A stretch of 64,000 bases of DNA from Agelas oroides. Its lineage: Eukaryota; Porifera; Demospongiae; Agelasida; Agelasidae. A program made the translations under genes and the position numbers. Location: assembly GCA_949130485.1 (NCBI GenBank), contig OX422188.1:8107443-8171442 (forward strand), read 5' to 3'. Shown one piece after another: positions 6,322 to 61,979 of this stretch (position 1 is its first letter; every line of letters starts with the position of its first letter). Below the pieces are notes generated by a model. It was not told the origin of the DNA and did no database searches. It was given only the letters and a program-made list of their open reading frames with translations.

Positions 6322-6403
6322 TAGCCTCGTTCCCAGGCCCCGCCCAGCTTTCCGTCGCTTGCAGTACGGAAAAGTGCGTGGGGAGAGCCTGGGAACGAGG
6401 CTA
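6322..6403. mobile_element. Hairpin MITE, TAGCCTCG family, 9-bp TSD
   Basis: 82-bp element with termini TAGCCTCGTTCCCAGGCCC and GCCTGGGAACGAGGCTA. The flanks 6313-6321 and 6404-6412 are both GTATGGTAG, an exact 9-bp target-site duplication. It lies just downstream of the PEX16 stop codon. Confidence 0.92.
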
Positions 6404-6412
6404 GTATGGTAG

Positions 6413-7498
6413 CATGTTTGTATCTCTTGCTGTATGGCTTGTGTGTTGCTACAATGTCATGTATATGAGTAGTTTTTCCAAGATATGCAATGCAAAGTTT
6501 GACTGTATTCATTCTTGTTAAACGTATTAGAATTAAGCTTCATGTCTTACTCCTTCCTTGGGCTTCCGGTGTGCAGTGAACTAGGCTCAGGAGCATCTTG
6601 TACGATGTGTACCTGATACTGCATAGGCGTCAGATACTGAGCTTAAAATCTATGATGTAATAAACTGCATGAGCCGGCCATGCAACATCCTGGGCGGGGC
6701 CTGGGAACATCCTGAGATTTATTTTTCACAATACCTATCTTTGAAACTTTCAGGGTTGTGTTCTGTCAAGCAGGGACATGGATAGTGATAATACATTTTG
6801 CTGAAGTGGGTCCAGGGAAATTGAAGAATGCTGCTGTTGTATGGGTAGATGGATAGCTATAACAGTGTCATACATATGTATCACCCATTGATTCCTGTGT
6901 TACTACTAATGACACAGTGTCTGGATGCACTGTGTTACTAGACATGGTGTCTGCATGCATACATGTAACAGAAACTAATAACAATACTAATAACAGCAAC
7001 AGCAGGCTGCTATGGAGCTAAGCCTTCCTGCCATGCATGTACGGGTTTCAGGGCTGCTACTAGCACTTGTCCCGTGCAGGCAGTGATGAAAAAAGTTCAA
7101 TCATGCAAATGCCGCATGGCTCACAGATTGCTCACAACGAGGACAAAAAAATGAATGATAGAAACTGATTCCTTTGAGGAATGTTGCAGTCTGCCCTGTG
7201 TTCTTAAGAATATTAGCTTGGTAAGCTCTCAGCGTCATTCACGTGACAAGTGTTCACAGGTCTTCCCCGTTTTACGTGCGCTCTTCCACCTATGAACGCA
7301 AACCGAAGAACAAAAAAACAGGGTAGGCCTGGGAACGAGGCTAGGGCTCGCTCACACTCGCCCCAATTATGACCATTACCCAAGCTATGTAAACCAGCAA
7401 TGTGCAAATAAAACTGCGTGTATTCAAGTATGTGAAGGTTACATATATACACTGAAACGTGAGAAATAAAAAACAAAAGTGCTATGCATATAGATGAG
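6413..7498. other. Gap between PEX16 and the MLKL-like gene, no gene seen
   Basis: Convergent 3' region. No convincing coding exon. It holds solo ends of the TAGCCTCG element family, near 6686-6715 and 7325-7345. Confidence 0.6.
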
Positions 7499-9223
7499 TT
7501 ATTCGTCATCACTAGATTGTGAACTCCACTCATCTGAGTCTCCGGCAACATTATAGTATGCCTTAGCTGCGAAAGTACCACCAACTAATGGTGCACCAAG
7601 TGTTCCAAGTACTGCTCCACCTACACCACCACCAACTCCAGCTGCCACAACCTTTTTTGCTTTGTTTTTTGCTTTGTTTCTTAGGTTCTCATTTGCTGTT
7701 TCTCCTGCCGCTACCCCCCCATACACTGCTCCAATTACTGGTGCCCCAAGAGTACCACCTACAAAAGCACTAGTTGCAGCAGCTATTTGAGCAGCTTTAC
7801 CACGTCGGGTCTTGGCTTCAAGAACTTTACTGAATTCGCTGCAATACTCTTTGCTGTTATATGCTCGTACACGAAAGTGATATCTTTCACCACTCTGAAG
7901 GCCTGTGGCTGTGGCTGAGAATTTTTCATGATCAACAGTTTTTAAGTGCTTCCATGGCCTTTTCTTGCTAGCATGTTGCATCTCAACCTGGTACCGGGAA
8001 ACAGCTTGGGGATTCACTGTTGGTTCCTTCCATCTGATTTTGAGGAGATTGCTTGTTCGCTTGCTGGAGACACGGAGTTCTTGTGGTGGACCTGGGATTA
8101 GGGGAAATGTAACAGCTTGACAGTGCTCACTTGCCTCACTCTCTCCTGCTTCATTCACCATGGCAACCCGGAAGGTATATGTTGTGTTAGGTGAGAGATT
8201 TCCAATTGGCATCCTGTCATGATGCTTGATGTCAAAAACTATGCGACTTCTATTTGATGCGTTGGTATCATTATACACAACCACACATTGGTGAACAGGG
8301 CTGCCACGCTCTTCTTCTTTACAAAGTAGTTGTGTTTGAACAATGACTTCTGTTGCCGAATATGGTGTCACTTCAGGCTTTTTGGGTTTGGCTGGTGCTG
8401 TCACATATCTAGTGATCTCTGGTTCAGCCCGAGTCCACTCTCCAGGTCCACAAGAATTTACTGCTCGAACTGAGATGGCATACTGTCGTCCACCACAGAC
8501 AATTGGAGGGCCAAGTGACAGGGTAAACATAGCCTTGTTGGTGCTATGTTGAACTTTTTGGAGATCGCATGACAAGTTACGGGCACGACCATCGTCAAAA
8601 CAGAGCTCATAGCGTTGGATGTCTTCATCCAAGTTTCTGGTGTCAGTCCACTCCACGTGCATGAAATTACTTTTTACTGACACTCTGATCCTAGAAACAG
8701 CATAGGGGCGAGACTTCCCGGTGCTTTCACCCATGTATATACCTGCATATGGATTTAAAGCATTTGCTTCAGCTCTCTCCTGCCCTTCTGGAACCATTTC
8801 CACCAGTTCATCGATCTTCCGGCCGACGTCTACCGTCAGTGCAAGCTGAAGGTTCTGTTGAGCCTTCTCCATCGACTTTTCGAGTGATTCCATTTTCTCC
8901 CTATTATCACGCACCGAACAGAACATGGCCACTCTGCTTGCAGCTTTGAGTTTGGCGCAGACATCCATGCACTCAGAAATTGCAACTTGGAAATTTTGCA
9001 AGCACACAAGGCATGACTGCGAAAAACCTCCAATTTTGGAAGCAGTCAAGTCATCTGCAATTTGCGCGAGTAGGTTGGCCTGTTGCTCAATGCGCTTTCG
9101 TTGGGCATCATTCTCATCTAACATTTTGACACGTTCACGAATTTCGCACACAGCTGTCCAGGCGAGATTTATCACACCGTTGATAGAGATAACTTCGGTA
9201 GAAAAATACTTCGAATCGGACAT
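7499..9223 (-). CDS. MLKL-type four-helix domain + 3 fibronectin III domains + glycine-zipper tail (intronless)
   Basis: A single uninterrupted frame of 574 aa from the ATG at 9223 (MSDSKYFSTEV). The frame continues upstream only through a GTG, so the ATG is the start. Residues about 8-145 are helical. The stretch FQVAISECMDVCAKLKAAS..FCSVRDNREKMESLE..LQLAL resembles the N-terminal four-helix bundle of MLKL and related HeLo-like domains, which bind or permeabilise membranes in programmed cell death. Three FNIII domains follow (about 170-280, 280-378 and 380-475; each ends in the ..Y.F.V.A.N type strand). The last 95 residues are Gly/Ala-rich hydrophobic repeats (GGTLGAPVIGAVYGG and GGAVLGTLGAPLVGG) of glycine-zipper type, plus an acidic Ser tail (SSQSSDDE). 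There is no kinase domain. The function is unknown; a membrane-active or scaffold role is inference. TATA- and NRF-1-like sites lie upstream. Confidence 0.85.
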   Translation of the reverse strand: MSDSKYFSTEVISINGVINLAWTAVCEIRERVKMLDENDAQRKRIEQQANLLAQIADDLTASKIGGFSQSCLVCLQNFQVAISECMDVCAKLKAASRVAMFCSVRDNREKMESLEKSMEKAQQNLQLALTVDVGRKIDELVEMVPEGQERAEANALNPYAGIYMGESTGKSRPYAVSRIRVSVKSNFMHVEWTDTRNLDEDIQRYELCFDDGRARNLSCDLQKVQHSTNKAMFTLSLGPPIVCGGRQYAISVRAVNSCGPGEWTRAEPEITRYVTAPAKPKKPEVTPYSATEVIVQTQLLCKEEERGSPVHQCVVVYNDTNASNRSRIVFDIKHHDRMPIGNLSPNTTYTFRVAMVNEAGESEASEHCQAVTFPLIPGPPQELRVSSKRTSNLLKIRWKEPTVNPQAVSRYQVEMQHASKKRPWKHLKTVDHEKFSATATGLQSGERYHFRVRAYNSKEYCSEFSKVLEAKTRRGKAAQIAAATSAFVGGTLGAPVIGAVYGGVAAGETANENLRNKAKNKAKKVVAAGVGGGVGGAVLGTLGAPLVGGTFAAKAYYNVAGDSDEWSSQSSDDE

Positions 9224-9314
9224 TTTCTGAGTGTTCCACTGCACTGGCAGATGTTGAGTAGCAATTAGCGACTAGCTTCACAGCTACAGACTCGTTCTCG
9301 CGAGTGTAACACCG

Positions 9315-9350
9315 CTTTATATACTCAAGTGCATATGCTTGCGCATGCGC
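9315..9350 (-). promoter_or_regulatory. Core promoter of the MLKL-like gene: TATA-like box and NRF-1-like palindrome
   Basis: On the minus strand TATATAAAG occupies 9323-9315, about 92 bp before the ATG at 9223. The palindrome GCGCATGCGC at 9341-9350 fits the NRF-1 consensus and sits at the edge of a CpG-rich stretch to about 9410. Confidence 0.6.

Positions 9351-9738: not shown

Positions 9739-9791
<53 letters not shown>
9739..9791 (+). repeat. (TG)n microsatellite just past the MON1 stop codon
   Basis: About 53 bp of (TG)n, ending about 12 bp from the MON1 termination codon. It would be transcribed as (CA)n in the MON1 3' UTR. Confidence 0.95.
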
Positions 9792-9793
<2 letters not shown>

Positions 9794-9802
9794 CTGCTTA
9801 TA

Positions 9803-18800: not shown

Positions 18801-21201
18801 CTCTCCTTCCTCCCTCCCTCCCTCCCTCTCCTTCCTCCCTCTCCTCCTCCTCCTCCTCCTCCTCCTTACTTTTAGCAATCTCCTCATTGGAGGGCAACAC
18901 CAGGTCTGACGGACCCACTCCGATGTGCAATGACTGTCTTATAGACATCTCCGCCATACTAGCTGTCAGTGACAGCAACATGTCTGACCGCAGTGTAGGG
19001 TCCGAATCCTCTTCCTTATTGCCCTCCCTGGAGGGGCTACTGCCCACACTGGATGATAATGGACTCGCGTCTCTGGATGCACAAGCTCCTGGGGGTGCAA
19101 GGGTGGAAGACTCCGGTGGGACGGAAAGAGGCTCGAGTGGAAACACCTGGGAGTTTTCATCAGCATTCAGCTAGAAAATATAACAGAAAACACTGTAAGA
19201 TATTTACCAGACACCCTGCTCATCCTTCACACCCTAAAGTCCATTTCCATGTTTCAATAAGCATAGCCCATGCAAGGCAGACAAGTTACTCACAGACAGA
19301 CAAGTCTGGTCGTTCACAGACAGACAAGTTTGGTCGCTCACAGACCGCCAAGTCTGGTCGCTCACAGACAGCCAAGTCTGGTCGCTCACAGACAGCCGAG
19401 GGTGGCAGAAGTTAGTCTAAGGTGCCTCAAGTAATGGCTATGCATGAATGACAAGCTTTGCTGCTCACAGAGAGCAGAGACTCTGCATGAATGACAAGCT
19501 AGGGTGCTTTAGCGGAGACTCTCCTACTGGCTTCATAGTCTGCTGGGTTATGAATGCTTAGCCCATGTGTAGCTAGAACACTTTAGCCACAGTAGCAGTC
19601 CCAACATCTGCATGTGTAGTCACCTATTATCTCTGGCAAGGACTGCCTCTCTTCTCTTTGACTCCTAGTTGTCAGTTGGCATACAAGCGCTCATAACTCA
19701 GTGCTGCTCTGTGACTTCTCTGTGAAGTACTAGTAAAAGCCTCTGAATTGTGTATCTCTGTTTGACGTGGTTGTCAATCATCTCCGAATGCTACACTACT
19801 GACTGTATGCACTTAGAATCTAATAGTTGTTTCGGCCTACCTGTGATATATCTTGCTGGGGCTCCATTCTGTCTCTCCTAAGCTGGGGACTAGGTGATTT
19901 CCTCAACCTTGACACTAGCCTGCTATGAGACCTGCCCTGTGATGGGGGTACAACGCCCTGGTTCCTAGTGATAAGGACGTCCGAGGGGATCTCTATGTTC
20001 ACAAACTCATCTGGGTTTTCCTCACACAACAAGTTGTACCTGCACAACAAGACACACGAGTTTAGTCACTTGTACAATGTACATACGGTTGAACCTCATT
20101 CCCAGGTCTTTCCCACCGCAGTTTCTAATTATGGGATCTGGGTATGAGAGTATGCTAAGCTAGCCTTGTTCTCATGTTCTCCAGTATTTGCAGTACTGAC
20201 AGTGATCAAATGCTGAACACCATGGAATGAGGTTGCAATTTAGCTAGTTGCAGGATCAGCCTCGGGGGGAGGAGCCCGGGGACGAGGCTAGATCAGTCAA
20301 AGCATGCATGTTCATGACAAAACCTAGCCTCGTTCCCAGGCCACTCCCAGATTTTATCTCGCAGCCGTGGTTTTTCTTTTTCCGTACTGCAAGCGACGGA
20401 AAGCTGGGCGGGGCCTGGGAACGAGGCTAGACAAAACCTACGACTACAGTATAAACTATAATCTGGAGTAGCGGAACAAATTAAATCATCTGTAAACTTG
20501 TTCAGTTACTCCAGAACAGCGGAAACACTTTAGTTTAGGGCTTCATATTTAGCAAATTGGCTTTCTATTAAAACCCACTATGTTACACTAATAAAACAGG
20601 GGAGGCCTAATATAAGTAGTCATCTTCAGTGATGTACTCGGACTTCATGTGGCCGGCCGGGGGGAACATGGGAATGAGGCTAGTTACAGTTTACATCAGC
20701 TGAACTGAAGCCATGGTGAGCAGTTCAAGAACAAAGAACAGTATGATAATAACCTGCATGTCACTCCCGGGTTCACAGAGGGGAGTCCCTGACAAAGAGA
20801 CACTGACAGACTGTGTCATTAAACTATACAGCCCTATGATACTATGATCAGCAGCCCCTTTCATTATGGTCAAAGCCAGACCTTGGCAACTAGCATAATG
20901 GCTCCAGAAACTAGGTACTATAGCCTACTAGATAAATCTCACTGCTGAAATAAGAGGTTCGTCCATGATTCAGGCTAGTAGAAAATGTCTTCTAGGAACT
21001 GTTGTTCCTAGCTTCTTGAGCCATTTAAATACAGCTTCAAGGTCTCAATTCTACTGTCCGCAGCTACGTGCAGCTTTACCCAGAGGTAATTCAACACAGC
21101 ACAGTACTTGCTACATACCCGTTCGGCTGCTCCGCTTCGTCACCGTCAGCCCACTCCTCAGAAAACTCCTCTGACCCAGCCCCAAATGCAGATGAAGCCA
21201 T
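9803..21201 (-). CDS. MON1: Vacuolar fusion protein MON1 (complete, 15 exons)
   Basis: MON1 with CCZ1 forms the guanine-nucleotide exchange factor that activates Rab7 on maturing endosomes. Exons on the minus strand, in order: 21119-21201, 19841-20039, 18870-19170, 17445-17523, 17122-17208, 16671-16764, 15962-16144, 15013-15084, 14170-14251, 11656-11870, 11393-11459, 11213-11324, 10732-10834, 10236-10331 and 9803-9847. All junctions are GT..AG and in phase; the total is 1818 nt, or 605 aa. The N-terminal 200 residues are acidic/Ser-rich and poorly conserved. Longin domains then show KHVFILSTSGKPVYSRYGKE, VFVCRGPLVFVAVAKSR, YYQILSVLT, and DLRYLLQGSEKFVDN. Later come DVHLIFNLVDASTSFR, CLLLISTDKEKFFALQEC, PEIRHFLYKSRKTSCITSP, and the terminal KLIRWIN-KEEERLIITSS. 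I cannot separate MON1A from MON1B; invertebrates normally have a single MON1. Confidence 0.95.
11880..12000. repeat. Polypurine minisatellite upstream of MON1 exon 10
   Basis: The plus strand repeats GGAGGTGGAGTGGAGG units. On the transcribed strand this is a long pyrimidine-rich tract leading to the exon 10 acceptor. Confidence 0.85.
12110..12270 (-). repeat. Minisatellite, about 54-bp unit, left arm of an inverted pair
   Basis: Three units of CATGTTAGCATTGTGTCGTA..GCACCAGGATTGATGATGACC. The same unit recurs in inverse orientation at 12890-13225. Both lie in MON1 intron 9. Confidence 0.9.
12309..12720 (+). mobile_element. Non-LTR retrotransposon reverse-transcriptase fragment (dead)
   Basis: The conceptual product includes IALASCLSKVIELCILGQHL, then QPQFGFKPGLSTTICTGILK, then, past a stop, NASKSFDTVDYN-like residues. 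This is the order of reverse-transcriptase motifs in LINE-type elements: a palm segment, the QFGF.KG.ST block, and a D-A-.-K-.-F-D-like site whose catalytic Asp is replaced here by Asn. Stops and frame changes show decay. It lies antisense within MON1 intron 9, between two inverted minisatellite arrays. Confidence 0.7.
12885..13225 (+). repeat. Minisatellite, about 54-bp unit, right arm of an inverted pair
   Basis: About six tandem units of GGTCATCATCAATCCTGGTG..ACACAATGCTAACATGTCTG, with variants. It is inverted relative to the array at 12110-12270. Confidence 0.93.
14609..14810 (+). repeat. 12-bp satellite (ACAGTACGATCT)n in MON1 intron 8
   Basis: Repeats of GTACGATCTACA, interrupted three times by ACATGTACAGT. 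Frames through it (YSTIYSTIYST..) are artefacts. Confidence 0.95.
15360..15860. repeat. Decayed cluster of TAGCCTCG-family hairpin ends in MON1 intron 7
   Basis: Several degenerate ends (AGCCTCATTCCCAGG, GGCCTGGGAGC, AGCCTTGTTCCCAGGCC, GCTTGGGAATGAGG) and internal GATCAAAAACTGGAG-type blocks, in both orientations. No clean target duplication remains. Confidence 0.7.
16147..16510. repeat. Polypurine G-rich minisatellite in MON1 intron 6
   Basis: Units of GGGGGGAGACAGAGGGAGAT.. directly precede (on the minus strand) the exon 7 acceptor at 16145. The Pro-Ser-rich frames read across it are not genes. Confidence 0.9.
17588..18020. mobile_element. MITE with TACCGTATAGCGCTAAATTTTC ends
   Basis: The left end TACCGTATAGCGCTAAATTT mirrors the right end CGAAAATTTAGCGCTATTG. 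The interior is rich in TTCGCGAA and carries a 17-bp triplication near 17757-17810. It is similar to the better preserved copy at 38661-39046. It lies in MON1 intron 3. Confidence 0.7.
18075..18220 (+). repeat. GGGA/GGAAA purine tract in MON1 intron 3
   Basis: Runs of GGGAAGGGAAG and AGGCAAAGGAAAGGG. No coding signal. Confidence 0.85.
18430..18868 (+). repeat. (CCCT)n/(CTTC)n/(CCT)n compound microsatellite
   Basis: Over 400 bp of CCTCCCT, then TTCC, then CTC units, reaching to within a few bases of the MON1 exon 3 donor (18869-18868). Read from the minus strand it is a GGGA tract directly following the 5' splice site. Confidence 0.95.
19288..19400 (+). repeat. 24-bp minisatellite in MON1 intron 2
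   Basis: About five units of CTCACAGACAGCCAAGTCTG and variants. Confidence 0.85.
20325..20429. mobile_element. Hairpin MITE, TAGCCTCG family, 9-bp TSD
   Basis: 105-bp element with TAGCCTCGTTCCCAGGCCAC..GGCCTGGGAACGAGGCTA. The flanks 20316-20324 and 20430-20438 are both GACAAAACC. It lies in MON1 intron 1. A degenerate 40-bp relative lies just upstream (20255-20290). Confidence 0.92.
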
Positions 21202-21424: not shown

Positions 21425-21582
21425 TAGCCTCATACCCAGGCCATTGGAACTAAGCTAGGAAGGTTTGGGAACAAGGCTACCAAAAAGTCACTTGAGCTCC
21501 ACCTAGCCTTGTTCCCAGGCCCTCGCCCCCATACTGCAAGTGATCAATAACTGGAGCTGAGAATGGCCTGGGAACGAGGCTA
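21425..21582. mobile_element. Two older TAGCCTCG-family hairpins (21425-21479 and 21504-21582)
   Basis: Both have recognisable inverted ends. The second has flanks AGCTCCACC and AGTCCCGCC, which differ by three transitions, consistent with an aged 9-bp duplication. They lie between MON1 and TXNL4A. Confidence 0.7.
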
Positions 21583-22994: not shown

Positions 22995-23019
22995 GGTTTT
23001 AATAGGAGTGTAGTAGCCA

Positions 23020-23144
23020 TAGCCTCGTTCCCAGGCCGTTCCCGGCTCCAGTTTTGATCGCTTGCAGTACACTGCAAGCGATCAAAACTGGAGCCACTGC
23101 AAGCGATCAAAACTGGAGCCGGGAACGGCCTGGGAACGAGGCTA
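23020..23144. mobile_element. Hairpin MITE, TAGCCTCG family, 9-bp TSD
   Basis: 125-bp near-perfect foldback with an internal duplication of the GCGATCAAAACTGGAGCC arm. The flanks 23011-23019 and 23145-23153 are both TAGTAGCCA. Confidence 0.95.
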
Positions 23145-33026: not shown

Positions 33027-33835
33027 ACAAGAATATAAAAATGTAAAAAGATGTAGGGATGGCATGCCAAAAAGTATGCAAACAAGGTAGGGATGATGCA
33101 TGCAAGCAAAGGTCAACATATTGGCAAAGCCCCATCCCTACATCTTTTTCACACTGCAGTTAGACAGTGCATGGGGGTCTTCCTAAAATGTAACACAAGT
33201 ACACCCCAACCTTTACTGGCAGTTCATGGCTTAGCCTCGTTCTCAGGCCACTTCCTAGCTCCTCCCACATGGCCTGGGAACAATGCTACAAGTTCACCAA
33301 CCTTTCTGCTGTAGCCTTGTTCTCAGGTCACTTCCTAGCTCCTCCTACATGGCCTGGGAATGAGGCTAGTATGATCCAGCATTATGTAAGTGTTGTAAAA
33401 GCATGGTTTTAGCCTCATCCCAAGGCCACTTTCCTCCTCCCACCTAGCCTAGGAACGAGGCTAATATTATTTGCAGCTGTATAGGTATGTTTGCCTCATA
33501 GGTAGCTATCAGATAGCTACCAAGTAGCTTTACTGCCAACATACTACTTGTAGCGACAGTGGCACCCTTGCTACATGCCTCTGATACAACCTAGACACTG
33601 AGCTTGAGTGGGCTGCAGACTGATCAGTGTGTAAAACTCAAGTACTCATGCACAGCATTAATCATGGATGGGTGCAGATTCAGTTCTAAAGCATGCTGTC
33701 TAACTGCAGTGTGAAAAAGATGTAGGGATGGGGCTTTGCCAATATGTTGACCTTTGCTTGCATGCATCATCCCTACCTTGTTTGCATACTTTTTGGTATG
33801 CCATCCCTACATATTTTTACATTTTTATATTCTTG
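33027..33835. mobile_element. Foldback element with about 148-bp terminal inverted repeats
   Basis: 33027-33175 (ACAAGAATATAAAAATGTAA..ACTGCAGTTAGACAG) is nearly the exact reverse complement of 33690-33835. The 515-bp interior holds three worn TAGCCTCG hairpins (33232-33288, 33312-33368 and 33410-33463). It has no coding capacity, and no target duplication is obvious. Confidence 0.9.
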
Positions 33836-34348
33836 TTTCTTTCCTTTTTTGATTATAATCTCAGTTACAGTTAGACCTAAGCATCATGAAGAATGATTTC
33901 TTTCAAGTGTAACCACAACCTTAGAACTTGAAACAGCATTGACAGATTAGTAGTGGTTTCAAGCATGTAACATGCCAGCTGGAATCCGATGTAGAGCCAA
34001 CCACTCTCCACCAGATTTTTAGCCCTTTGTGAAGCAGATTTCCTAGATGATCACATGACAACTGACCAGCAAATCTGTGACCATCCCAGCTTTACTAAAG
34101 TGATGAGTATCTTTTAGTGTAGCTATAAGTAAGCAACTGAATGCACCGCCTTACCTACTTAGTGTCCATGAACCTTTCCCACTGCTACGGGAAGAGACCG
34201 TATCAGCCGTGCTTACTGGTCAACGCGCGACTGATTTCGCGTGTACACTAATCTCGTTCTTAGACCATAGATTAGCCTCGTACCCAGGCCACATGGGAGG
34301 TGGCCTGGTATCCACTGTTTGCGCATGCGCGAAAACCCCCACGATTTC

Positions 34349-34671
34349 TAGTCTCGTGCCCCGCCCGCGTGCGCCTCCCGGCGAGAAACGGTCTGGTGAA
34401 CGAAGTCGAATTTCTTGGGCTTATTACCCAAAACGGGTAATGACCAATGAGATCGCGAGATCGGTAATTATTACGTAGCACTTCCCTTACAACAGTAAAA
34501 TTTGTTAATCTCCATTCGAGTATCCGTACCTTTTTTGAGCGGGTTGGCCGCAAAATGTTTTGATCGTTGCTAGGTTACAATGTTGCAAAAGTGTGCGCTA
34601 GCCCAAGAAATTCGACTTGGTTCACCAGACCGTTTCTCCTCGGGAGAGGGTGGGGTCTGGGGACGAGACTA
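34349..34671. mobile_element. Nested TAGTCTCG-type element, 9-bp TSD
   Basis: 323 bp with inverted ends of about 75 bp (TAGTCTCGTGCCCCGCC..AAACGGTCTGGTGAAC..TTTCTTGGGCT and its complement ending GGGGACGAGACTA). The flanks 34340-34348 and 34672-34680 are both CACGATTTC. It sits inside the RecQ-carrying element. Confidence 0.9.
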
Positions 34672-34779
34672 CACGATTTCATGGGGTATCGTATACCATC
34701 GTTTACGAACCGTTAATCTTTACCGTATACTGGCGTATAGCTCCGAAGCACGTCCGTCTCGAGCTTACCCCGCGAATAT

Positions 34780-35060
34780 GGCAGGTAAAAGCGAGGACAT
34801 TGATAAAGCGCTCAAGTTCGCTCTTTGTTGTATTGGGAAAGGGAGATTTCACGTTGAAAGCAGAGCAGCTGGATGCGATCAAATGTATCTACGATGGTAA
34901 AGACGTATTCCTGTGGCTACCCACGGGATTTGGTAAGTCCGAGACTCTGCCGTTTGTTTTCAACTACAAGCACGATGACGGTGGAACCGGCGGTGGTTGT
35001 AGCGTAGTCCTTGTCGTGTCACCCCTTGTGTCTCTGATAATGGAAGCCATCGCCGCGTAA
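34780..35060 (+). pseudogene. RecQ-type DEAD/DEAH helicase N-terminal fragment
   Basis: From an ATG at 34780 the frame reads MAGKSEDIDKALKFALCCIG. After a frame shift near 34840-34850 it continues as FTLKAEQLDAIKCIYDGKDV, then LPTGFGKSETLPFVF and SVVLVVSPLVSLIMEAIAA. This is the motif 0 / Walker A (GFGKS) / motif Ia region of a RecQ-family ATPase; motifs II to VI are absent. It is enclosed by the inverted ends of a transposon. It is probably a captured host or transposon-borne gene piece rather than a working enzyme. Confidence 0.75.
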
Positions 35061-35312
35061 ACACAGCTGCCTATTTCTCCGCATAACAACCACGTGTAAC
35101 TTGTCCATAATCGGACTCATTCACGGAAGATTTCCGGAATCGTTCGCGCATGCGCAAACAGTGGATACCAGGCCACTTTTCCCTTCTCCCACGTGGCCTG
35201 GGTACGAGGCTAACCATAGATAATAGACCTACGGAGAAGGCGCCTCAAATTTATCCGGGCATGACGTCACTACCCGGCACTAGAGCGCGTTACGGTTGTA
35301 TGGTGAAATTGC

Positions 35313-35871
35313 TAGCCTCGTTCGTTCGTCGCTTGCAGTACGAAATAATTCGCTCAGAAGGCCTGGTCCATTTCATCACGTGATGTGTGCCGCAGCCGTA
35401 ATTTTACGTCACACCAGATATGGCCGCGCCGTGTTGCAGCATTGGTTGTCGAGATAACCACAAATGGAGTTGGAAGAACCTGAAACAGGTCACGCGCATA
35501 CGATAGACTACAATAGTAAACTCGAGCTGAAGAAGACGAGGAGTCGAAATCCAGGTTCGACCTAGTAACACGATGTGGCCAAGGTATCTGAATATAGACG
35601 TCTACTATCCAGCTAAACATGGCAGCTTGTGCTCTTTCGCTGCCGAGACTTTTAGCACTTAGGTAAGTTCGTACACGAACCATTACTGTGATCTCTGGGG
35701 GCCTCTTTCAACGCTGAACTGGGCTCTAGCTCATCTATGACATCATTGATTCCAGTAGAATGGTCGTGACGTAGCTGTGGCACACATCACGTGATGAAAT
35801 GGACCAGGCCTTCTGAGCGAATTATTTCGTACTGCAAGCGACGAACGCGCGAAGGCCTGGGAACGAGGCTA
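35313..35871. mobile_element. 559-bp TAGCCTCG-family element with exon-like interior, 9-bp TSD
   Basis: The ends TAGCCTCG..GTCGCTTGCAGTACGAAA and TTTCGTACTGCAAGCGACG..GGGAACGAGGCTA are inverted. The flanks 35304-35312 and 35872-35880 are both TGAAATTGC. The interior has an ATG (about 35619) opening MAACALSLPRLLALR, directly followed by a GTAAGT donor. A relative lies at 39221-39780 with the interior inverted. Confidence 0.92.
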
Positions 35872-39780: not shown

Positions 39781-39894
39781 TAGCCTCGTTCCCAGGCCTT
39801 CCCCGGCTCCAGTTTTTGATCGCTTGCAGTATTGGTTTTTGCATACTGCAAGCGATCAAAAACTGGAGCCGGGGAAGGCCTGGGAACGAGGCTA
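39781..39894. mobile_element. Hairpin MITE, TAGCCTCG family
   Basis: The 114-bp foldback has 50-base arms (TAGCCTCGTTCCCAGGCCTT..GATCGCTTGCAGTA). The flanks differ, so it inserted beside, or recombined with, the 39221 element. Confidence 0.9.
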
Positions 39895-41862: not shown

Positions 41863-42007
41863 TGCAAGGCTTCCCCATTGACTCCCATACATTAGCGTGA
41901 GTTAGACGTATGATAAATATATATATTATAGTTTATGCAAGGCTTATCTACTATACTGGACGCGAGTTTCCTACCATCATCGCATGTATGCTATGGCACG
42001 CACAAAG

Positions 42008-50400: not shown

Positions 50401-51321
50401 CTTGTGTTCTGCATCATTGTTTCCAGCCACTATTCCACTACCGTTGCTCGTTTAGCAGGAAACAATGCTGTTCCTGTGCTAGCAACCCTTTTCCTGCTCT
50501 CGTATGCTAAAATCCAACGTGCAATCATTGCTACTTTGTCTTTCATCTTCATTCATGAGGAAGATGTTGGCTCTTTCGCAGTTTGGAAATTTGATGGAAA
50601 CTTGAGATTTCTGAATGAGAAACACATCCCATTATTTGTGACCTCCGTTCTGTTCATGACATTATTTCTGCTCCCACTGACTCTGCTGCTACTCTTTGAA
50701 TCTCATTTGCTGAAACTCCGTCATTTTCGTATTGTAAGGATCATGAGCCGGCTGAAGCCATTATTAGATGCATTTCAAGGCCCCTATAAGGCTAGCTTCC
50801 GATTCTGGCCTGGTTTGATGCTGGTAGTACGCAGTGTACTTCTTGTTTCCTTTGCACTGAATGTCTCCGGTGATCCTGGTATCAACCTTCTTGTCATTAT
50901 GCTGCTCACGTCTGTAGTTGCAGCAGCTACTTTGTTCAAATCTGGTGGTGTTTACAAAAACATTCCACTAAACCTTCTCAACAGCTTCTACCTCTACAAC
51001 CTGATTGGATTTGCAGCTTGGACACTATTCAACAGATATCAGTACACTTTGGAGCAGGAGAGGTTTTCTGAGAACCAGTTCGTAACCTCCTACATCATGC
51101 TGGGGGCCGCTGCCTTGATCTTCATTCTGACAATCATTTTTCATGTCTACCAGAAAGTGAAAAAATCTGAAACAATTTCAACTTGCTGCAAATTGCCGCA
51201 GAGGGAAAAGCAACGAAAAATTGATGGCAATGAAGTTGAAATAATGCCTCTACCTATTAGGGTACCACCCACTTATTCATATGTCAGTATTCGAGAATCA
51301 CTTCTTGATGAGGCTGTCTGA
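47487..51321 (+). pseudogene. Gene A copy A2: nonsense mutation plus frameshift
   Basis: Same layout as A3, starting MSQLLLLSLLGINALT and ending ESLLDEAV. An in-frame TGA at 48258-48260 (ATATGATTTGG, where A1 has ATATCTTTTGG) stops the product at 257 residues. A one-base insertion in a poly-A run near 48357-48369 also shifts the frame. From 48418 a long open frame (967 residues) resumes, covering the rest of the ectodomain, the Cys-rich stalk and the helices. The two lesions are independent, so a pseudogene is more likely than an error. Downstream, 51430-51880 resembles the gene A 5' flank. Confidence 0.88.
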
Positions 51322-51965: not shown

Positions 51966-52023
51966 TAGCCTCGTTCCCAGGCTCTCCCTGCTAAGGAGCG
52001 GGGAGAGCCTGGGAATGAGGCTA
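51966..52023. mobile_element. Hairpin MITE, TAGCCTCG family, 9-bp TSD
   Basis: 58-bp foldback TAGCCTCGTTCCCAGGCTCT..AGCCTGGGAATGAGGCTA. The flanks 51957-51965 and 52024-52032 are both GTCCAGGTC. Confidence 0.95.
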
Positions 52024-52032
52024 GTCCAGGTC

Positions 52033-52748: not shown

Positions 52749-55700
52749 TCAGACAGCCTCATCAAGAAGTGATTCTCGAATACTGACATATGAATAAGTG
52801 GGTGGTACCCTAATAGGCAGAGGCATTATTTCGTCTTCATTGCCATCAAAGTTTTGTTGCTTTTTTCTCTGCAACCGTTTGCAGCAAGTTGAAATTGTTT
52901 CAGATTTTTTCAGCTTTTGGGAGACATGAAAAATGATTGTCAGAATGAAGATCAAGGCAGCGGCCCCCAGCATGATGTAGGAGGCTACGAACTGGTTCTC
53001 AGAAAACCTCTCCTGCTCCAAGGTGTACTGATATCTGTTGAATAGTGTCCAAGCTGCAAATCCAATCAGGTTGTAGAGGTAGACGCTGTTGAGAAGGTTT
53101 AGTGGCAAGTTTTTATAAACACCACCAGATTTGAACAAAGTAGCCGCTGCAACTACAGACGTGAGCAGGACAATCACAAGAAGGTTGATACCAGGATCAC
53201 CGGAGACATTCAGTGCAAAGGAAACGAGAAGTACACTGCGTACTACCAGCATCAAACCAGGCCAGAATCGGAAGCTAGCCTTATAGGGGCCTTGAAATGC
53301 ATCTAATAATGGCTTCAGCCGGCTCATGATCCTTACAATACGAAAATGACGGAGTTTCAGCAAATGAGATTCAAAGAGTAGTAGCAGAGTCAGTGGGAGC
53401 AGAAATAACGTCATGAAAAGTATGGAGGTCACAAACAATGGGATGTGTTTCTCACTCAGAAATCTCACGTTTCCATCAAATTTCCAAACTGCGAAAGAGC
53501 CAACATCTTCCTCATGAATGAAGATGAAGGATAAAGTAGCAATGATTGCACGTTGAATTTTAGCATACGAGAGCAGGAAAAGGGTTGCTAGCACAGGAAC
53601 AGCATTGTTCCCTGCTAAACGGGCAATGGTAGTGGAATAGTGGCTGGAAACAATGATGCAGAACACAAGAATCCAAATGTAAACTGGGAAAAGGAACTGA
53701 AGAAATGTTTTTGTGTAGATATCAAGTTTGCTTGAGAAACAAACCTCTAGGCCCAAGTCAAGGTTTAGCCAGGCTATAAATACAGACATAATCTTGCTGC
53801 CATTTGTTGTGAGTCCGAATGCTTCACGAACAGCTTGAATTACGTTGGCGTAGAATATCAGTTCGTTGATTGTACCAGTTGCTACAGTTATGTTTAGTAC
53901 AGTTAAGAAAACCACTAGTACAATTCCAGCCAGTATAAATGCGGGAATAAGTCCAAGAAACTTGTCTGTGCAAGGTGCACACCTGGATGAGCCGAGAGTA
54001 ATGCTAAACCCTTCTTTACAACTTCCACATAGGATTCCAGAATGATTAAAGTCACATTGAGTGTCAGGGTTACTGGCATTGAGATGGACACCAGCAGCTT
54101 TGCAGTATTCAGAGGGGCAGTGTTTGTAATATAAGACTGAGTGGTTGGTAAAGGAGATCCATAGTGACCCTGTGCGATAAAATGATTGGTTGTTTATATC
54201 ACAGAGAACAGAGAGCTTGCTTAGTGCAGCTGAACAAGTGCACCTATTCACTGCTAAATGGAACCCTACTGGGCAAAGTTTGAAGGCTAGACGCAGGATT
54301 TTTGAAAAGTGAAATGGAAGTGCACTTCCTTCAGCTGTTAGCCGAATTGAAATATCAGAAACATTTTCTGGTGTTTCAACTTCAAATCTCAAGTCATCAC
54401 AAACAGTTTTCAAACTTTGTGGGTCTTTAGTCTTGAGGGTAACACCTGTGTCATTTGATCCCTCCAAAGTCTGCAAAATAACTGAAGGCGTAGTCCCTCC
54501 ATAGTATCCTATTCCCACTGCTTGGACAGTGGAGTGTTGACCAGGGTAGACAGAAACATTTAATGTAGAGATGTCACAGTTTCGGTAATCATGTGCGCAG
54601 TAACATACACCGACTGCAACAGAAGAAAGCTCAGAATCAGTAGGAAAGGATGACTCCAGTATAAAGGTGTTATTAAAGATGTTCTCTCGCTTCTCACGCT
54701 GGGATTCATGAACAAGCTTCTGAGAATTCTGAGAGCACTTCAACAGGTCTCCACCATATATGGCATCACCAGCAATACCAGCTCTATTGTCCTTCATAAT
54801 AACATGCGCTCCAGATGACAGAATGTCTCCTGTTGGAAGCAGCTGGTAAGAGCATGGGGTCTCATAATTTCTGACCAGTCCTTGATTGATGACAATACCA
54901 CCACCATAGCTTGAAGCATTGTTGTTGGTTATTCTGAGAATGGAGTATGGATGAAGGTACATGGTGCTGTATGCATCGAGTGACATTGCTCCTCCGATAA
55001 TACCAGAATTATTCTGTAGTGTATTGTTACCAATCATATGCATTGTGCTTGAGAGGGCTACTATTCCCACAGCGCCATTTGCTTCTATACTGCAGTTGTG
55101 AATGTACACAGACAAAGCATCACTTACCAACATGGTCGAGAGTTTGGGGTAATCTGCTAACTTCCAGCTGTCATCCTCATGCAGTATATGACAGTTTGAT
55201 ATTGTTAATCCTGATAGAGATACATTCAGTAGTGGCTCATTTGTTTCCTTAGACTCTTGAATAAGCAGAGCAAGGGAGCTCCGTGAATCACTACTCGTGT
55301 AGTAGTAAATGTAACTTCCATTGATGATGGTGTTTGAAATTTGCACCTGAAAGCAACAAGGCACCATCCATTTTCCACTATCAGAAAGAAACACTTTCAT
55401 CCCCCCTCCTAAATTGTCTTGCATTGTTACATTGGTCAGAGATATGTTTGTGTGAGTAACTTTGTGGTGAAGATTGCACGTCTCTAAGGTGTGATTCCTG
55501 TCTTCAATCACAGAATCAATATCAATGTACATGCCTGGTGCTTGATCCCAGTATTGCATGTATTGCTGGTCTATGAATGGTTTGTTACCGTAACTCAAGG
55601 AAGTATTGACAACTTCCAGTGAAGAATTAGACACAAAGTTCTTCACTGCACAGTAAAAATTTGCTCCAGCATCACCAACATTGTCATGAAAATTAGAATT

Positions 55701-56576
55701 TTCAATACGAAATTGGACATCAAATGAAGTTTGTGACAATCTTACTCCGAGCCCTGCAGCATACCTTGGACCCCATATGTAGTTGTTGAGATTAACTCCA
55801 AATGATATCTCTGTGTGCTGTATTGAAAAGAAAGAGGTTGGTTTTGAGCCATGTTCATGACTGCAGTTCATGTCAATAAATACTATCCACACATTTCCTC
55901 CTTCACATCCGACTGTTACATTTGTACAGTTGACAGATTTATACAGTTGTTGTGAAATGAGGTCATAGTTGGTGTGAGTGACCATGGAGTTTCGAATGTG
56001 TGATGTTCCAAGAGGGTTGACCCAGAAAATACCATTTCCTTTGCTGTAGGTGATGTTAACATTGTCAAGTGTTACCTGAAAAGAGAATATTATCTGCAGT
56101 CCAGCAGTTAGGGAGTTAGTAGGAAAACGCTGACCATCTGGAAAAGCAGTCCTTGAGTTTAGCTCTGTTAAATTAATTGGAAATCCACAAGAAACCAGTT
56201 TAATGTTTTGCATATGGAAGAATGACACATTGATGAATGCAAACCCTGCTGCTGGTCGACAGTGAATGGTTGCAATGAACAGAGACTGGTCACAGTTAAC
56301 CCCACACAGTGAAAGGTTGTGCACATCTCTCACTACTATGGGTTTCTCCAGGTAGTACTCTGTGGGTTGGAACAGCAGGGTTGTGTCGGACTGAAAGCAC
56401 CGGTGAGGTTCAGAGCTGCAGTTGGAGAACGAAATGCAGTTGTTTTGCATCTTGCAAGTTTCACTCACATTTCTATTGTCTGGTAGAATGTGGAGATATG
56501 TTGCTTCTTCTGCTCCAAGTGAGTATGAAGTAAGAGCATTCATGCCCAGTAGAACTAACAACAACAATCGACTCAT
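52749..56576 (-). CDS. Gene A copy A3: intact beta-helix / Cys-rich / multi-TM cell-surface protein
   Basis: A single uninterrupted frame of 1275 aa from the ATG at 56576 (MSRLLLLVLLGMNALTSYSL, a signal peptide). The ectodomain to about residue 760 has dozens of N-x-S/T sites and periodic short strands (HIRNSMVTHTNYD, SSYGGGIVINQG, ISNCHILHED) typical of parallel beta-helix (pectin-lyase-like) folds. A Cys-rich segment follows (CPVGFHLAVNRCTC..GILCGSCKEGF..RCAPCTDKF, about 765-870). About eight hydrophobic helices (870-1230) then include FLQFLFPVYIWILVFCIIV and RFWPGLMLVVRSVLL. A short basic/acidic tail ends ESLLDEAV. It is the only undamaged copy here and is inverted relative to A1 and A2. 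Intronless. The helical part may be distantly related to TRP-like/Flc-type channels or GPCRs; I cannot decide. The biological role is unknown. Confidence 0.85.
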   Translation of the reverse strand: MSRLLLLVLLGMNALTSYSLGAEEATYLHILPDNRNVSETCKMQNNCISFSNCSSEPHRCFQSDTTLLFQPTEYYLEKPIVVRDVHNLSLCGVNCDQSLFIATIHCRPAAGFAFINVSFFHMQNIKLVSCGFPINLTELNSRTAFPDGQRFPTNSLTAGLQIIFSFQVTLDNVNITYSKGNGIFWVNPLGTSHIRNSMVTHTNYDLISQQLYKSVNCTNVTVGCEGGNVWIVFIDMNCSHEHGSKPTSFFSIQHTEISFGVNLNNYIWGPRYAAGLGVRLSQTSFDVQFRIENSNFHDNVGDAGANFYCAVKNFVSNSSLEVVNTSLSYGNKPFIDQQYMQYWDQAPGMYIDIDSVIEDRNHTLETCNLHHKVTHTNISLTNVTMQDNLGGGMKVFLSDSGKWMVPCCFQVQISNTIINGSYIYYYTSSDSRSSLALLIQESKETNEPLLNVSLSGLTISNCHILHEDDSWKLADYPKLSTMLVSDALSVYIHNCSIEANGAVGIVALSSTMHMIGNNTLQNNSGIIGGAMSLDAYSTMYLHPYSILRITNNNASSYGGGIVINQGLVRNYETPCSYQLLPTGDILSSGAHVIMKDNRAGIAGDAIYGGDLLKCSQNSQKLVHESQREKRENIFNNTFILESSFPTDSELSSVAVGVCYCAHDYRNCDISTLNVSVYPGQHSTVQAVGIGYYGGTTPSVILQTLEGSNDTGVTLKTKDPQSLKTVCDDLRFEVETPENVSDISIRLTAEGSALPFHFSKILRLAFKLCPVGFHLAVNRCTCSAALSKLSVLCDINNQSFYRTGSLWISFTNHSVLYYKHCPSEYCKAAGVHLNASNPDTQCDFNHSGILCGSCKEGFSITLGSSRCAPCTDKFLGLIPAFILAGIVLVVFLTVLNITVATGTINELIFYANVIQAVREAFGLTTNGSKIMSVFIAWLNLDLGLEVCFSSKLDIYTKTFLQFLFPVYIWILVFCIIVSSHYSTTIARLAGNNAVPVLATLFLLSYAKIQRAIIATLSFIFIHEEDVGSFAVWKFDGNVRFLSEKHIPLFVTSILFMTLFLLPLTLLLLFESHLLKLRHFRIVRIMSRLKPLLDAFQGPYKASFRFWPGLMLVVRSVLLVSFALNVSGDPGINLLVIVLLTSVVAAATLFKSGGVYKNLPLNLLNSVYLYNLIGFAAWTLFNRYQYTLEQERFSENQFVASYIMLGAAALIFILTIIFHVSQKLKKSETISTCCKRLQRKKQQNFDGNEDEIMPLPIRVPPTYSYVSIRESLLDEAV

Positions 56577-57052
56577 TCTTGGACCTGGTACAGTTCCACT
56601 CTGATTGTATAACAAACAGATTTCTATGTACAGCTAGCTACGGCTTCTAGTAAGTAAGTGGATAGCTCACTGAAATGGATGTGAATCAGATGTAAGTGGC
56701 TTATATAGCTACTAGTCTGGACATGGCTGAATAGCTGACATACTAAAACTTGTCTCCCAAGTGTATGATAGTATATACAAGGTATATACTCGTAAAGTGG
56801 ACTCAACATTTCATGGGTTGTTAAACAATTGGGGTTTTAGTGCAAGAAAGGATCATGAATACCTACAAAGGTATAAGCTCACTGACCACAAATTGACTAC
56901 CTAGCTACTTTGGTTCCAGCTTGTGGGTTTCAAAGGGACTGAAACTATTTGTAAAATGGCACCTATAATTAGAATCACGTAACCAAGCAATCATCATACA
57001 TATAAAGTTTTTCCCCATTGACCACAAAATTTGGACTGCAACCATAAGTGTG

Positions 57053-57331: not shown

Positions 57332-57333
57332 GA

Positions 57334-57453: not shown

Positions 57454-57750
57454 TTTCTACACAGATCACATAAACAATTTGACTTGCTTGACTAAGTTGC
57501 GTTCAGGCTTTTCGCGGTACGGATCTCGGAACAAAAATCGGAGCGATTCCATTCCATATTTTGATTAATATTCCTCGATATTCCTTGATCGACACGACAG
57601 CAAATCATAGTGCCACATGGCTGGTGGGTAAGTAACCTTACGGGGTGTTATATATATATATATTATAGCTTATGCAAGGCTTATCTACTACTGGACGCGA
57701 GTCAGTTCATACCATCATCGCATGTATGCCATGCCACGCCCCTCACAGAT

Positions 57751-59139
57751 ATGGTCTCCAGAATCAGGATGCTGGTCGCTTGCCTGGGGTCTGTAGCGAC
57801 TTTGGTGTGTGTGCTTTACCTCTGGTACATGCACACAGGCCCATCCACCACTCCTGGGAACGGCAGTGAGGAGAGCCTGGTCCCTGTTACACTATCGCCC
57901 CCACCTACACCACCAACATGGAAGCCAAAGACATTCTGTGATACTTTTGTCGAACATCCTTTTCAAGAGTCTGTTCCAGTGTGTGGCTCCAGAGTGTGGC
58001 CTAACCATTCCATTAGCTGCTTTAGGACATCTAGATCTAATGTTATGGCAACGTGCACCATTCAAAACTTAGCAGTTCATCCAAAGAAATTGAATGATGC
58101 AATGTCAGACTGTAACACTTGCCGTGAGAGCCTTCGTAGAACCAGTTCAGTGTGGCTGCTGGAAAGTAATCAAACGCAATGTCCGGTACCGACAATGGCA
58201 AATCTTTCAAAGGCTGCAGAATCTGTTGACTACATGCGAAATTTTGTGGACAAAGTGATCCACTCCAAGGAAAAACCACCCTCTGTGTGTGAACAATGGG
58301 TCAACAAGACTGCATATTTCTTCATGGTTAGTCAACCACATCACATCTACTTCAGGTTTTTGGCCTATTTCAATGTTCATAGGAGCCTCATGAATAACCA
58401 TGCATCCAACGAAGACTCAGTTGTTATTAGAATATCAGATGCAAAGAACTATAAGTTTGAAGAGTTTGAGAGAGCATTGTTTCCAGGAATACTCACTTTG
58501 AAAAACTTCTCAAGTAATATCACTTGTTTTCGGAAGGTGGTGTTAGTTCCATGGGCTTATGCATGTGTTTTGTTTCGATGTAGGATAGACGAAAGCCTAA
58601 GACGTGACTGCTTGAACTGTGATGGTACTGGTTTGTATGCCACCAGCTTCATGACATTTCGAACAAGAGTCCTGAATGCTTGTTCCCTGAAGGACCGTAA
58701 AGAAAACTCGCCAGCAAAAGAACTGTTGGTTGTATCAAGGAAGCCATACGTTCGGTACCACGGAGACAGTCAGTTCAGATTCCAGAGAGTGTTGACTAAT
58801 GAGAAAGAACTTCTACTATTATTGAACAACTCTTTCCCCTTCTTGCACCAGACTGTTGTACACTTAGAGAATTTACCTCTCTGTGCACAAGTGCGTCATG
58901 CACACAAGGCTGATGTCCTATTAGGTGTCCATGGAGCAGGTTTGGTTCATATGTGGTGGCAAAGAGAAGATGCATTTCTGTTTGAGCTTGTCCCTACGTA
59001 CAAGCTGGACACGCCCACTCTCAAGATACTAGCCAGATTGGCAGGAAAGCAGCATTATGGTGTCACAATCTCTGGTGACACAAACAGAGTCACAGCTAAT
59101 TTGACTGAAGTTGTAGAGGGGTTAAGAAATGTCATGTGA
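57751..59139 (+). CDS. Gene B2: GT61-family glycosyltransferase (EOGT/POMGNT2-like)
   Basis: 462 aa from the ATG at 57751 (MVSRIRMLVACLGS). The longer upstream frame lacks a shared start and is read from a non-ATG codon. It is nearly identical to B1 with scattered substitutions (for example PTYKLDTPTLK for PKYKLDTPTFK) and keeps all the same features: signal anchor, VSRKPYVRYHGDS, and GVHGAGLVHMWW. Neither copy has a lesion, so both may be active. It is divergent from A3 with about 1.2 kb between the start codons, and convergent with C2. Confidence 0.88.
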   Translation: MVSRIRMLVACLGSVATLVCVLYLWYMHTGPSTTPGNGSEESLVPVTLSPPPTPPTWKPKTFCDTFVEHPFQESVPVCGSRVWPNHSISCFRTSRSNVMATCTIQNLAVHPKKLNDAMSDCNTCRESLRRTSSVWLLESNQTQCPVPTMANLSKAAESVDYMRNFVDKVIHSKEKPPSVCEQWVNKTAYFFMVSQPHHIYFRFLAYFNVHRSLMNNHASNEDSVVIRISDAKNYKFEEFERALFPGILTLKNFSSNITCFRKVVLVPWAYACVLFRCRIDESLRRDCLNCDGTGLYATSFMTFRTRVLNACSLKDRKENSPAKELLVVSRKPYVRYHGDSQFRFQRVLTNEKELLLLLNNSFPFLHQTVVHLENLPLCAQVRHAHKADVLLGVHGAGLVHMWWQREDAFLFELVPTYKLDTPTLKILARLAGKQHYGVTISGDTNRVTANLTEVVEGLRNVM

Positions 59140-59916: not shown

Positions 59917-61394
59917 TTAGAATGCAATGTCAAGCAGTGATACAAGAATTAGCAGAAAATAAAGTGGGAAAACAGACAAAAAAATCTCCGCTATAATCAG
60001 ATCATCTGAACTCAAGTAGTGCACAAATACATAGTGTGTCAAGATGCTTAAAATGACAGGAAGATATATGAGGAATACAGCATTTACAACTGAACTTAAT
60101 GCAATCATCTGTGGCAGAAATGCCACCAGTGAAAACATCATGTATTGCGCAAACACCAAAAAATTCCAAACAGACAGAATGCTTGCAATCCTTTTAACTA
60201 TACTGTCTGTTTGAAAGAAGCAGCTTACAAGACAGGTGATCAAAAATAGAATACCACATGTCAACAGCTTGAAAGCGATCACGATCTCTCTGTTCAACAT
60301 TAGTACACAGAGTTCTCCTGCAATGATGACAGTATTCCAAGCTCCAACGACACAATTCATTGACCTTAACAGGCTGCCTTCTTCCATCAAAACATGGCTT
60401 ACTTTGAGAAAAATGCAAAGCAGTGGTATAGAAAGCAGAAAAATACAGGTTTCAAATACTATTAATAAAAGGAAACCCTGGAATTTTCGTTGATGTGTTT
60501 GTTGTTCAGACAGGATATTGTATTGCCATTGTTCTTTCCTTTGATCACTTTCAGTAGTACATCTAGCAACCTGTGTATATGTGTAAATAATTGGAGTGTT
60601 TACATGAGTGGGTGGAGGCCATTATGGCATGATTAATCACAGCACATGAATCTACTCAATTAAAAACTTAGTCACCACTGCAACCATCACTCTCAGCTAC
60701 TTTTCCCAGATCCTTGTGTTTCTTCAAGTCCGATTGTGACTAGCAATTTTCAATGCTTATACATGTTGAAGGTCAGTGAAACAAGTATATAGCTAGCCAC
60801 AATTTAGTTTACCTTTGGTAGTATTCTCTCCAGGGCCGTCTGCATGTCTTGCTCCGATACTGTAACTGCAAGGTGCTGTATATACAGTGATAATTCAATT
60901 CTCTGTGGATTGAAACAGAGCTCACTGCCCAATCGTTTACTCTTGCAGCAAGGCAACCACATGAGCTGACAGGTAACATTGTGAATAATGAATGGCAAAC
61001 GTGGCTGGAGCTGGCAGTAGAACTGTGGATCAACTATCATCAGAACTGGAGACATGGTGACCAGGAAATTATAGAAACTAGTCTCATTTTCCTGCTCGTA
61101 GGTTCGATTGACACGGATGAGCTGTCCAGCTGGTGGCAGATGTTCCAAGTGCCATTGAGCTATTGACACAAGGAACCTCACATTCAGTGGCCTACCTTGG
61201 AGTTGAGGACTACAGAAGTACCTGGAAATTTGTTCTTGGTTAGTTTTATTTGCACTAAGAGCATTAATGAGGGTTACTTCAAGTGATGTTTGCTGGTCAT
61301 GATGCATCAATCCCTGTGCAGGCTGGAAAGTGCTGCACTCTCGGGCTGCAAGCAGCAGTAGGATAATTGCGAACACTGTTTCCAACAATGTCAT
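59917..61394 (-). CDS. Gene C2: signal peptide + ectodomain + multi-TM protein, two exons
   Basis: Exon 1 (61394-60813, ATG at 61394; three codons upstream the frame opens on a TTG) encodes MTLLETVFAIILLLLAA, a signal peptide. A Cys-containing ectodomain of about 170 residues follows (FLVSIAQWHLEHLPPAGQLI, MWLPCCKSKRLGSELCF). The donor AAG|GTAAAC joins in phase 0 to the acceptor at 60571, and exon 2 (60570-59917) begins VARCTTESDQRKEQWQY. Exon 2 contains five or six hydrophobic helices (FQGFLLLIVFETCIFLLSIP, LLTCGILFLITCLVSCFF, ending LLILVSLLDIAF). The total is about 411 aa. I recognise no family. Its repeated co-occurrence with genes A and B suggests a local cluster rather than a proven functional link. 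Confidence 0.75.
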
Positions 61395-61472
61395 ATTCTG
61401 CAATCTAGAGATACATCACATAATTATATTCATGAAGTATTGATACTGTATATAGTTAGTCTGCAGTATGGG

Positions 61473-61979
61473 TAGGCCTTGGCAAATTATGCTCAAAAAC
61501 TTTGTTATTATGCTATGCTCCAATGCTCTCAAATGCTTTGATTATGCTTCCAAGAATTGTTATTATGCTCACATTATGCTCGCTTATAATATTATTCATG
61601 AGCACGTGGTCACGTGGTGGTTAACTACCACGTGTCACTAAGTAAACGTGCAATGGTCGATTGTCCTGCGGTACACTCTAGTCTCGGAACCAGACCAGGG
61701 TCTGGATCCGAGACTAGGTACACTCCACTGTAGAGCCTGTGGAGAGTGAGTTGGCCCGTGAAATTAGCCCTGTACCAGTAGCTAGTGGAGTCAGTCTAGT
61801 GCTTGTTTTGTCCTAGATAGCTAAACTAACTTTCTTTTTGTTGTAGTTGATGAATGTTGAAATTCTCCTAAACAGTACAATTATGCTCGTAACAGCTCTT
61901 CATTAAGCCAGCATATGCTCCTATGCTTCCACACTACATTATGCTCAAAATTATGCCAGCATAATTCGCCAAGGCTTAA
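61473..61979. mobile_element. TAGGCCTTGGC-ended MITE, 8-bp TSD
   Basis: 507 bp with ends TAGGCCTTGGCAAATTATGC and GCATAATTCGCCAAGGCTTA. The flanks 61465-61472 and 61980-61987 are both AGTATGGG. The interior is studded with ATTATGCTC words. It contains the 38-bp element below. The 8-bp duplication fits hAT-type insertion. Confidence 0.85.
61679..61716. mobile_element. 38-bp TAGTCTCG-type micro-hairpin, 9-bp TSD
   Basis: TAGTCTCGGAACCAGACC with its inverse, ending GGATCCGAGACTA. The flanks 61670-61678 and 61717-61725 are both GGTACACTC. Its ends match the element at 34349-34671. Confidence 0.9.

Follow-up and report, generated by a model that had tools for sequence, protein, structure and literature searches.

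The AcademH group of DNA transposons reportedly has animals and fungi among its hosts, to go by the title of a 2020 paper by Kojima. Here we analyse a stretch of 64,000 nucleotides from the sponge Agelas oroides (assembly GCA_949130485.1, contig OX422188.1, positions 8,107,443 to 8,171,442 of the forward strand; hereafter the window), in which an initial annotation had described nine transposase-free insertions with shared inverted termini and 9-bp target duplications as Mutator-like. The passages on AcademH in PMC10045372 ascribe target duplications of 9 or 10 bp to this group and of 3 or 4 bp to AcademX, a difference tied to the presence of a helicase or a nuclease; a 'RecQ Helicase in Academ' appears in the corresponding passage of PMC3627910, and AcademH is cited to Kojima 2020 (Mob DNA 11:15) in passages of PMC10045372, PMC10799480, PMC8290104 and PMC12210899. 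Since both a helicase inside the element and 9-bp duplications match AcademH as published, we consider it likely that the window elements are non-autonomous members (miniature inverted-repeat transposable elements, MITEs) of a group of AcademH-like DNA transposons, moved with RecQ/DUF6589 machinery.

Target duplications in the window and across the genome

All nine insertions were found in the window sequence when cut out with their flanks, and eight of them are bordered by an exact 9-bp duplication. The 82-bp non-autonomous element at 6322..6403 lies between copies of GTATGGTAG (6313-6321 and 6404-6412), and its two ends diverge past bp 17. The inverted ends of the 105-bp element at 20325..20429 (duplication GACAAAACC) are perfect over 18 bp, beyond which its left and right subterminal sequences differ and give it a chimeric look; those of the 125-bp hairpin element at 23020..23144 (TAGTAGCCA) are perfect over 49 bp. 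A 940-bp element (34273..35212, TAG...CTA, duplication ACCATAGAT) forms the outer part of a nest, having received the later insertion of a 323-bp TAGTCTCG-type element (34349..34671, CACGATTTC), and the 559-bp element at 35313..35871 (TGAAATTGC) has ~14 bp in its right end that are absent, as judged by eye, from its left end. Two palindromic elements complete the exact cases: one of 58 bp at 51966..52023 (GTCCAGGTC) and one of 38 bp at 61679..61716 (GGTACACTC), the latter made of two 17-18-bp ends back to back. The ninth, a 79-bp element at 21504..21582, had been taken for an aged copy, and its decayed duplication indeed matches at 6/9 positions (AGCTCCACC/AGTCCCGCC), the other three having changed by transition.

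The initial annotation therefore holds in its central description, terminal-inverted-repeat elements that lack a transposase and carry exact 9-bp duplications, and its proposal that they are mobilised in trans may fairly be adopted. Its coordinates are right for eight elements, the outer nested one being 1 base wider on each side; its shared termini apply to most ends, the exceptions being one end each of 51966-52023 (right) and 21504-21582 (left), both 1 base off the 8-base terminus. Similarity between elements is confined to roughly the first 17-18 bp, and several elements differ beyond this point at their own two ends. Six folds of the shorter window elements as single strands have z-scores of -5.7 to -17.8, and 0 of 200 shuffles were as stable.

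The exact 8-base end occurs 28 times in the window, 16 times within the nine elements and 12 times outside them (at 2594, 7343, 9393, 13706, 20290, 22702, 22994, 33232, 33463, 39221, 39781 and 39894), and none of the 12 has a partner with a matching duplication within 1200 bp. Among them are a facing pair of the same family at 33232..33463, whose unlike flanks mark it as a rearranged or unrelated pair, and a 114-bp pair with matching inverted ends at 39781..39894, whose flanks match at 4/9 positions and hold no target duplication.

We scanned 264 kb of the genome, comprising the window and 20 other 10-kb stretches taken at fixed positions from five contigs, by pairing each TAGYCTCG end (up to 1 mismatch) with an opposite end 30-1200 bp away, requiring a similarity of 75% or more between the inverted ends across up to 24 bp and examining the flanks only afterwards; the elements at 34349 and 35313 fall below this similarity limit and were excluded. 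Of the 34 end pairs obtained, 17 from the window and as many from the stretches, 12 have flanks identical at exactly 9 bp, and at each of the lengths 4-8 and 10-12 bp exact identity was found in 0 of 34. The six exact pairs in the window are elements already named by the initial annotation, and two of the six in the stretches represent one duplicated locus (L027). Three further pairs match at 8/9 and one at 6/9, and the remaining 18, which include cross-pairs of neighbouring elements, show no duplication. Of 2000 flank pairs made by shuffling, 8 matched at 4 bp and 4 at 5 bp, and no match exceeded 5 bp. Duplications at chance level or of another length, which the initial annotation had named as counter-evidence, are thus not what this sample yielded. 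Twenty-seven elements were also tabulated, most of them chosen with their flanks in view, and 20 match at 9/9, six at 8/9 and one at 6/9; the six chosen by helicase content (L029-L032 and the long copies on contigs C21 and C1) all match at 8/9 or better.

The 54 ends of these 27 elements are mostly conserved at positions 1-17, where position 10 is free and positions 4 and 16 are two-fold, and show no conservation past about position 20. Within the 19 exact duplications the target has a weak preference for G first and C last (18/38 on both strands). As the initial annotation had suggested, we searched the 259-Mb genome with the terminal consensus: the 17-base sequence TAGYCTCGTNCCCAGRC occurs at 13,233 + 13,673 places (26,906) and its reversed pattern at 0 + 0, and the 8-base end occurs 31,434 + 31,355 times per strand vs 3,853 + 3,910 for the reversed pattern, counts that include local arrays and solo ends and are not a tally of insertions. 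Two such arrays lie at C1:524626-524985 and C1:566175-567281; in one of them the 8-base end recurs every 32 bp and in the other mostly at multiples of ~15 bp, a regularity which indicates that ends have been drawn into tandem repeats. Over ~180 kb at C1:1247289-1429500 the 17-base end follows a regular spacing pattern, which suggests a long tandem or segmental duplication.

Helicase-encoding relatives with the same ends

Removal of the nested insertion and of one copy of its duplication reduces the 940-bp element to a core of 608 bp. An open reading frame at 34617..35060 (+), whose first residues fall within the nested element 34349..34671, encodes a broken N-terminal part of a RecQ-type helicase, namely the start of its DEAD domain (PF00270, E 4.6e-6). 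This fragment has 152 matches in the genome (from the best 150 of 1331 candidates scored). Three of the loci, L029-L031, chosen for a long open frame, are elements of 627-653 bp with the same kind of ends and exact 9-bp duplications, and a longer helicase relative, P0105, served as the lead to longer copies. The 2,609-bp element L032 (duplication 8/9) contains the helicase in three reading blocks, with DEAD and Helicase_C over the cut-off and the RecQ zinc-binding domain below it, and the start of a second gene on the opposite strand near its other end; its first helicase block matches 37 PDB sequences at E ≤ 0.001, which are RecQ-family helicases by name. Positions 1-434 of the core align to 2609-2166 of L032 at 88.6% and positions 432-608 to 205-1 in two pieces. 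The core therefore corresponds to both ends of L032, and the 940-bp element is, judged by sequence, descended by internal deletion from an L032-like helicase-encoding element; the deletion form is, on the same grounds, found again at another locus, the unlinked 646-bp copy L030, whose junction region is the same.

Two much longer copies have these ends. The element at C21:4555477-4565583 measures 10,107 bp, with ends alike at 58/60 bases and the exact duplication CTTGCTTGC, and the copy at C1:3610194-3616939 measures 6,746 bp, with a duplication of 8/9; the two are 93-98% alike in their aligned parts, both begin TAGCCTCG, and in both the genes for RecQ and DUF6589 are convergent. The helicase coding region begins no more than a few hundred bp from one end. 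In the C21 element the helicase blocks (DEAD, E 1.9e-15; Helicase_C, E 9.2e-12) run inward from this end and DUF6589, in two blocks (E 4.2e-34 and 3.5e-17), inward from the other, and in the C1 copy genome-wide searches placed RecQ and DUF6589 inside the element on opposite strands. The C21 frame nearest the other end is zf-AD-like (E 6.1e-4, below the cut-off), and its C1 counterpart has a short match (18/31 residues) to the frame retained in L032. The C21 element appears to be inserted in another large coding region, long open frames flanking it on both sides (L033:2-1173 and positions 11810-15109 of L033+L034).

The same pairing of genes recurs across the genome. Among 39 listed RecQ loci, taken from the best 150 of 504 candidates scored, 27 are followed by DUF6589 at a distance of up to 12 kb downstream, convergently in 26 cases, against an expectation of 0.15. 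In the 400 bp upstream of nine further RecQ loci an outward-facing end was present in 9/9, ~247-311 bp before the conserved helicase stretch (eight exact 8-mers and one with one mismatch, in both the TAGCCTCG and the TAGTCTCG versions); random 400-bp windows contain the exact 8-mer in 144/5000 cases and a version with up to 1 mismatch in 313/2000. Open frames as long as 1,000-1,900 aa contain some of the DUF6589 matches, three with the same score (e.g. C2:19766780-19767832, C17:3662260-3663312 and C18:6756821-6757873); these apparently belong to another kind of gene that is also multi-copy.

Its position beside the helicase makes DUF6589 the likely transposase of these elements. Common ends, 9-bp duplications on elements of 34 bp to 10 kb and the linkage of helicase and DUF6589 are the observed parts of a scheme in which the DUF6589 protein would (i) recognise ~17 bp at each end and (ii) cut and join with a 9-bp stagger, while the helicase would help to separate the strands or take part in repair. 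This machinery would move the short window elements in trans, and elements with mixed ends would arise because only the outer ~17 bp matter.

Several observations weigh against this reading, and the unpaired loci among them lead us to hold it less firmly. The Pfam name for DUF6589 (PF20231) is 'Family of unknown function', and structure predictions for a DUF6589 relative gave models of mean pLDDT 70.9 and 63.2 that are low at the conserved acidic motifs. For 12 of the 39 listed RecQ loci the search of 12 kb downstream gave no DUF6589, the 27 pairs include one that is non-convergent, and among the 84 DUF6589 loci used 57 are without a listed RecQ partner; some of these may have partners that are unlisted and others may stand alone. 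The assignment to AcademH follows the published description, by duplication length and helicase, and the equation of DUF6589 with the Academ transposase would follow from it. The unassigned function, the low-confidence acidic motifs and the loci without a helicase partner would also be compatible with RecQ and DUF6589 being passengers or accessories of another, unseen transposase, as would the accessory role of RecQ helicases in other transposons, given for KolobokH in the relevant passage of PMC9587614. We regard such a protein as unlikely: in the C1 copy all open frames >140 aa are accounted for by the helicase, the DUF6589 gene (to which a 242-aa frame was allotted by eye, against DUF6589 relatives) and the zf-AD-like frame, and convergent pairs that recur at 26 loci, across diverged families, are not expected of passengers. 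Among the DUF6589 relatives listed (120 of 356 in one search and 11 in another), the only one named by organism comes from the sponge Halichondria panicea, and DUF6589 is mentioned in no paper found by our literature search.

Comparison with Mutator, KolobokH and Academ

The label 'Mutator-like' had been based on 9-bp duplications as a hallmark, and a long member with the same ends encoding a MULE transposase had been anticipated. Mutator-like elements do resemble the present family in their 9-bp target duplications, inverted ends and non-autonomous copies, and MuDR-type elements with 9-bp duplications are described in a passage of PMC3627910. The genome also holds MULE genes that could be invoked as a source of transposase, since several of the 119 listed PF10551 matches share score and frame length in the manner of a recent multi-copy family. 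In the two long copies bounded by these ends the coding content is instead a RecQ-type helicase plus DUF6589; no MULE transposase domain was seen in them, and four scanned DUF6589 relatives gave no PF10551 match at E ≤ 5 (HMMER filters drop most matches above 0.1). Compared by position, with no reading of the MULE copies' own ends, the listed MULE matches lie near 1 of the 39 RecQ loci vs 0.21 expected, about the level of chance. We have rejected the Mutator reading on the coding content of two long copies and the lack of MULE linkage, and consider mobilisation of the elements by the MULE transposases of this genome very improbable. The hallmark itself is shared, as AcademH duplicates 9 or 10 bp according to the passage in PMC10045372.

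KolobokH elements, like those described here, are DNA transposons with a RecQ helicase inside (PMC9587614, in the part consulted). The same part of that source gives TTAA as the duplication of Kolobok and fungi as the only hosts of KolobokH, whereas the duplications here are 9 bp long and without fixed sequence; on this difference in duplication we have rejected KolobokH, to which the elements could belong with only negligible probability. AcademX, which the published scheme groups with AcademH in one superfamily, differs by its 3-4-bp duplications (passage in PMC10045372) from the 9 bp found here.

The AcademH-like assignment, which we favour, accommodates both the 9-bp duplications, within the 9-10 bp of that group, and the helicase, present inside L032 and the C21 element as DEAD and Helicase_C domains. 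The present family departs from the passages on AcademH in the ~13,000 matches of the 17-base end per strand and in its units of 34-44 bp, neither of which those passages contain. Literature searches on Mutator MITEs in sponges and, at the level of titles, on Academ in sponges returned nothing relevant.

Neighbouring genes and the shortest units

The elements share the window with several genes. Three copies (24531-28351, 47487-51321 and 52749-56615, one of them inverted) are present of a long gene that looks extracellular in one part and multi-pass membrane-spanning at its end, and the first copy has no Pfam family over the cut-off. Two similar genes lie at 41984-43396 and 57610-59139, the first belonging to glycosyltransferase family 61 (PF04577). 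Their alternation with copies of the membrane gene makes it seem that the whole block was duplicated. On the reverse strand, 7499-9244 contains an open reading frame with fibronectin type III domains and an MLKL N-terminal-like domain.

The shortest members of the family consist essentially of two 17-bp ends head to head. With a spacer of 0-10 bp, this arrangement (34-44 bp) was counted at 182 genomic places (one count per place, whichever the strand) and its reversed pattern at none; flanks were examined at 3 of the 182. Exact duplications border a 34-bp perfect palindrome (TAGCTGTAC) and a 36-bp perfect palindrome (TGGCAAGCA), and the flanks of another 36-bp palindrome, L048, match at 6/9 only, which counts against every ultra-short unit being an insertion. 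A 44-bp pair at L028:3342-3385 likewise lacks a duplication. Two histories may account for these units. We lean slightly towards the one in which they are immobile as such, a longer hairpin having inserted and the centre of its palindrome having been trimmed later with the duplication left intact. The 38-bp window element at 61679..61716 suits such trimming after insertion, as it is the sole copy in the genome within 2 mismatches, and so does the 34-bp unit, in which the two 17-bp ends meet with zero spacer. Trimming accounts less readily for a 43-bp unit with a non-palindromic centre, of which 5 contigs carry six identical copies and a seventh that differs at one position, in both orientations, although a larger shared repeat around these copies could also explain them. 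Its multiple copies suit movement as a unit, and transposition of the 34-44-bp units as complete elements with 9-bp duplications is possible, if doubtful. A literature search on the smallest transposons returned nothing relevant.

If the shortest units did move as such, those of 34-44 bp would count among the smallest units of mobile DNA, and the smallest sequence inserted with a proper duplication could be read here as at most 17 bp per end. Units of this length would be too short for looping of double-stranded DNA, and synapsis would need another geometry, for example ends contributed by two separate copies, or else a form, hairpin or single-stranded, produced by the element's helicase. For the classification of such elements, 9-bp duplications alone are not sufficient to call an element Mutator, which corrects a common shortcut. 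The convergent pairing at 26 loci ties the Pfam family DUF6589 to helicase-carrying transposons and thereby makes it a testable candidate transposase.

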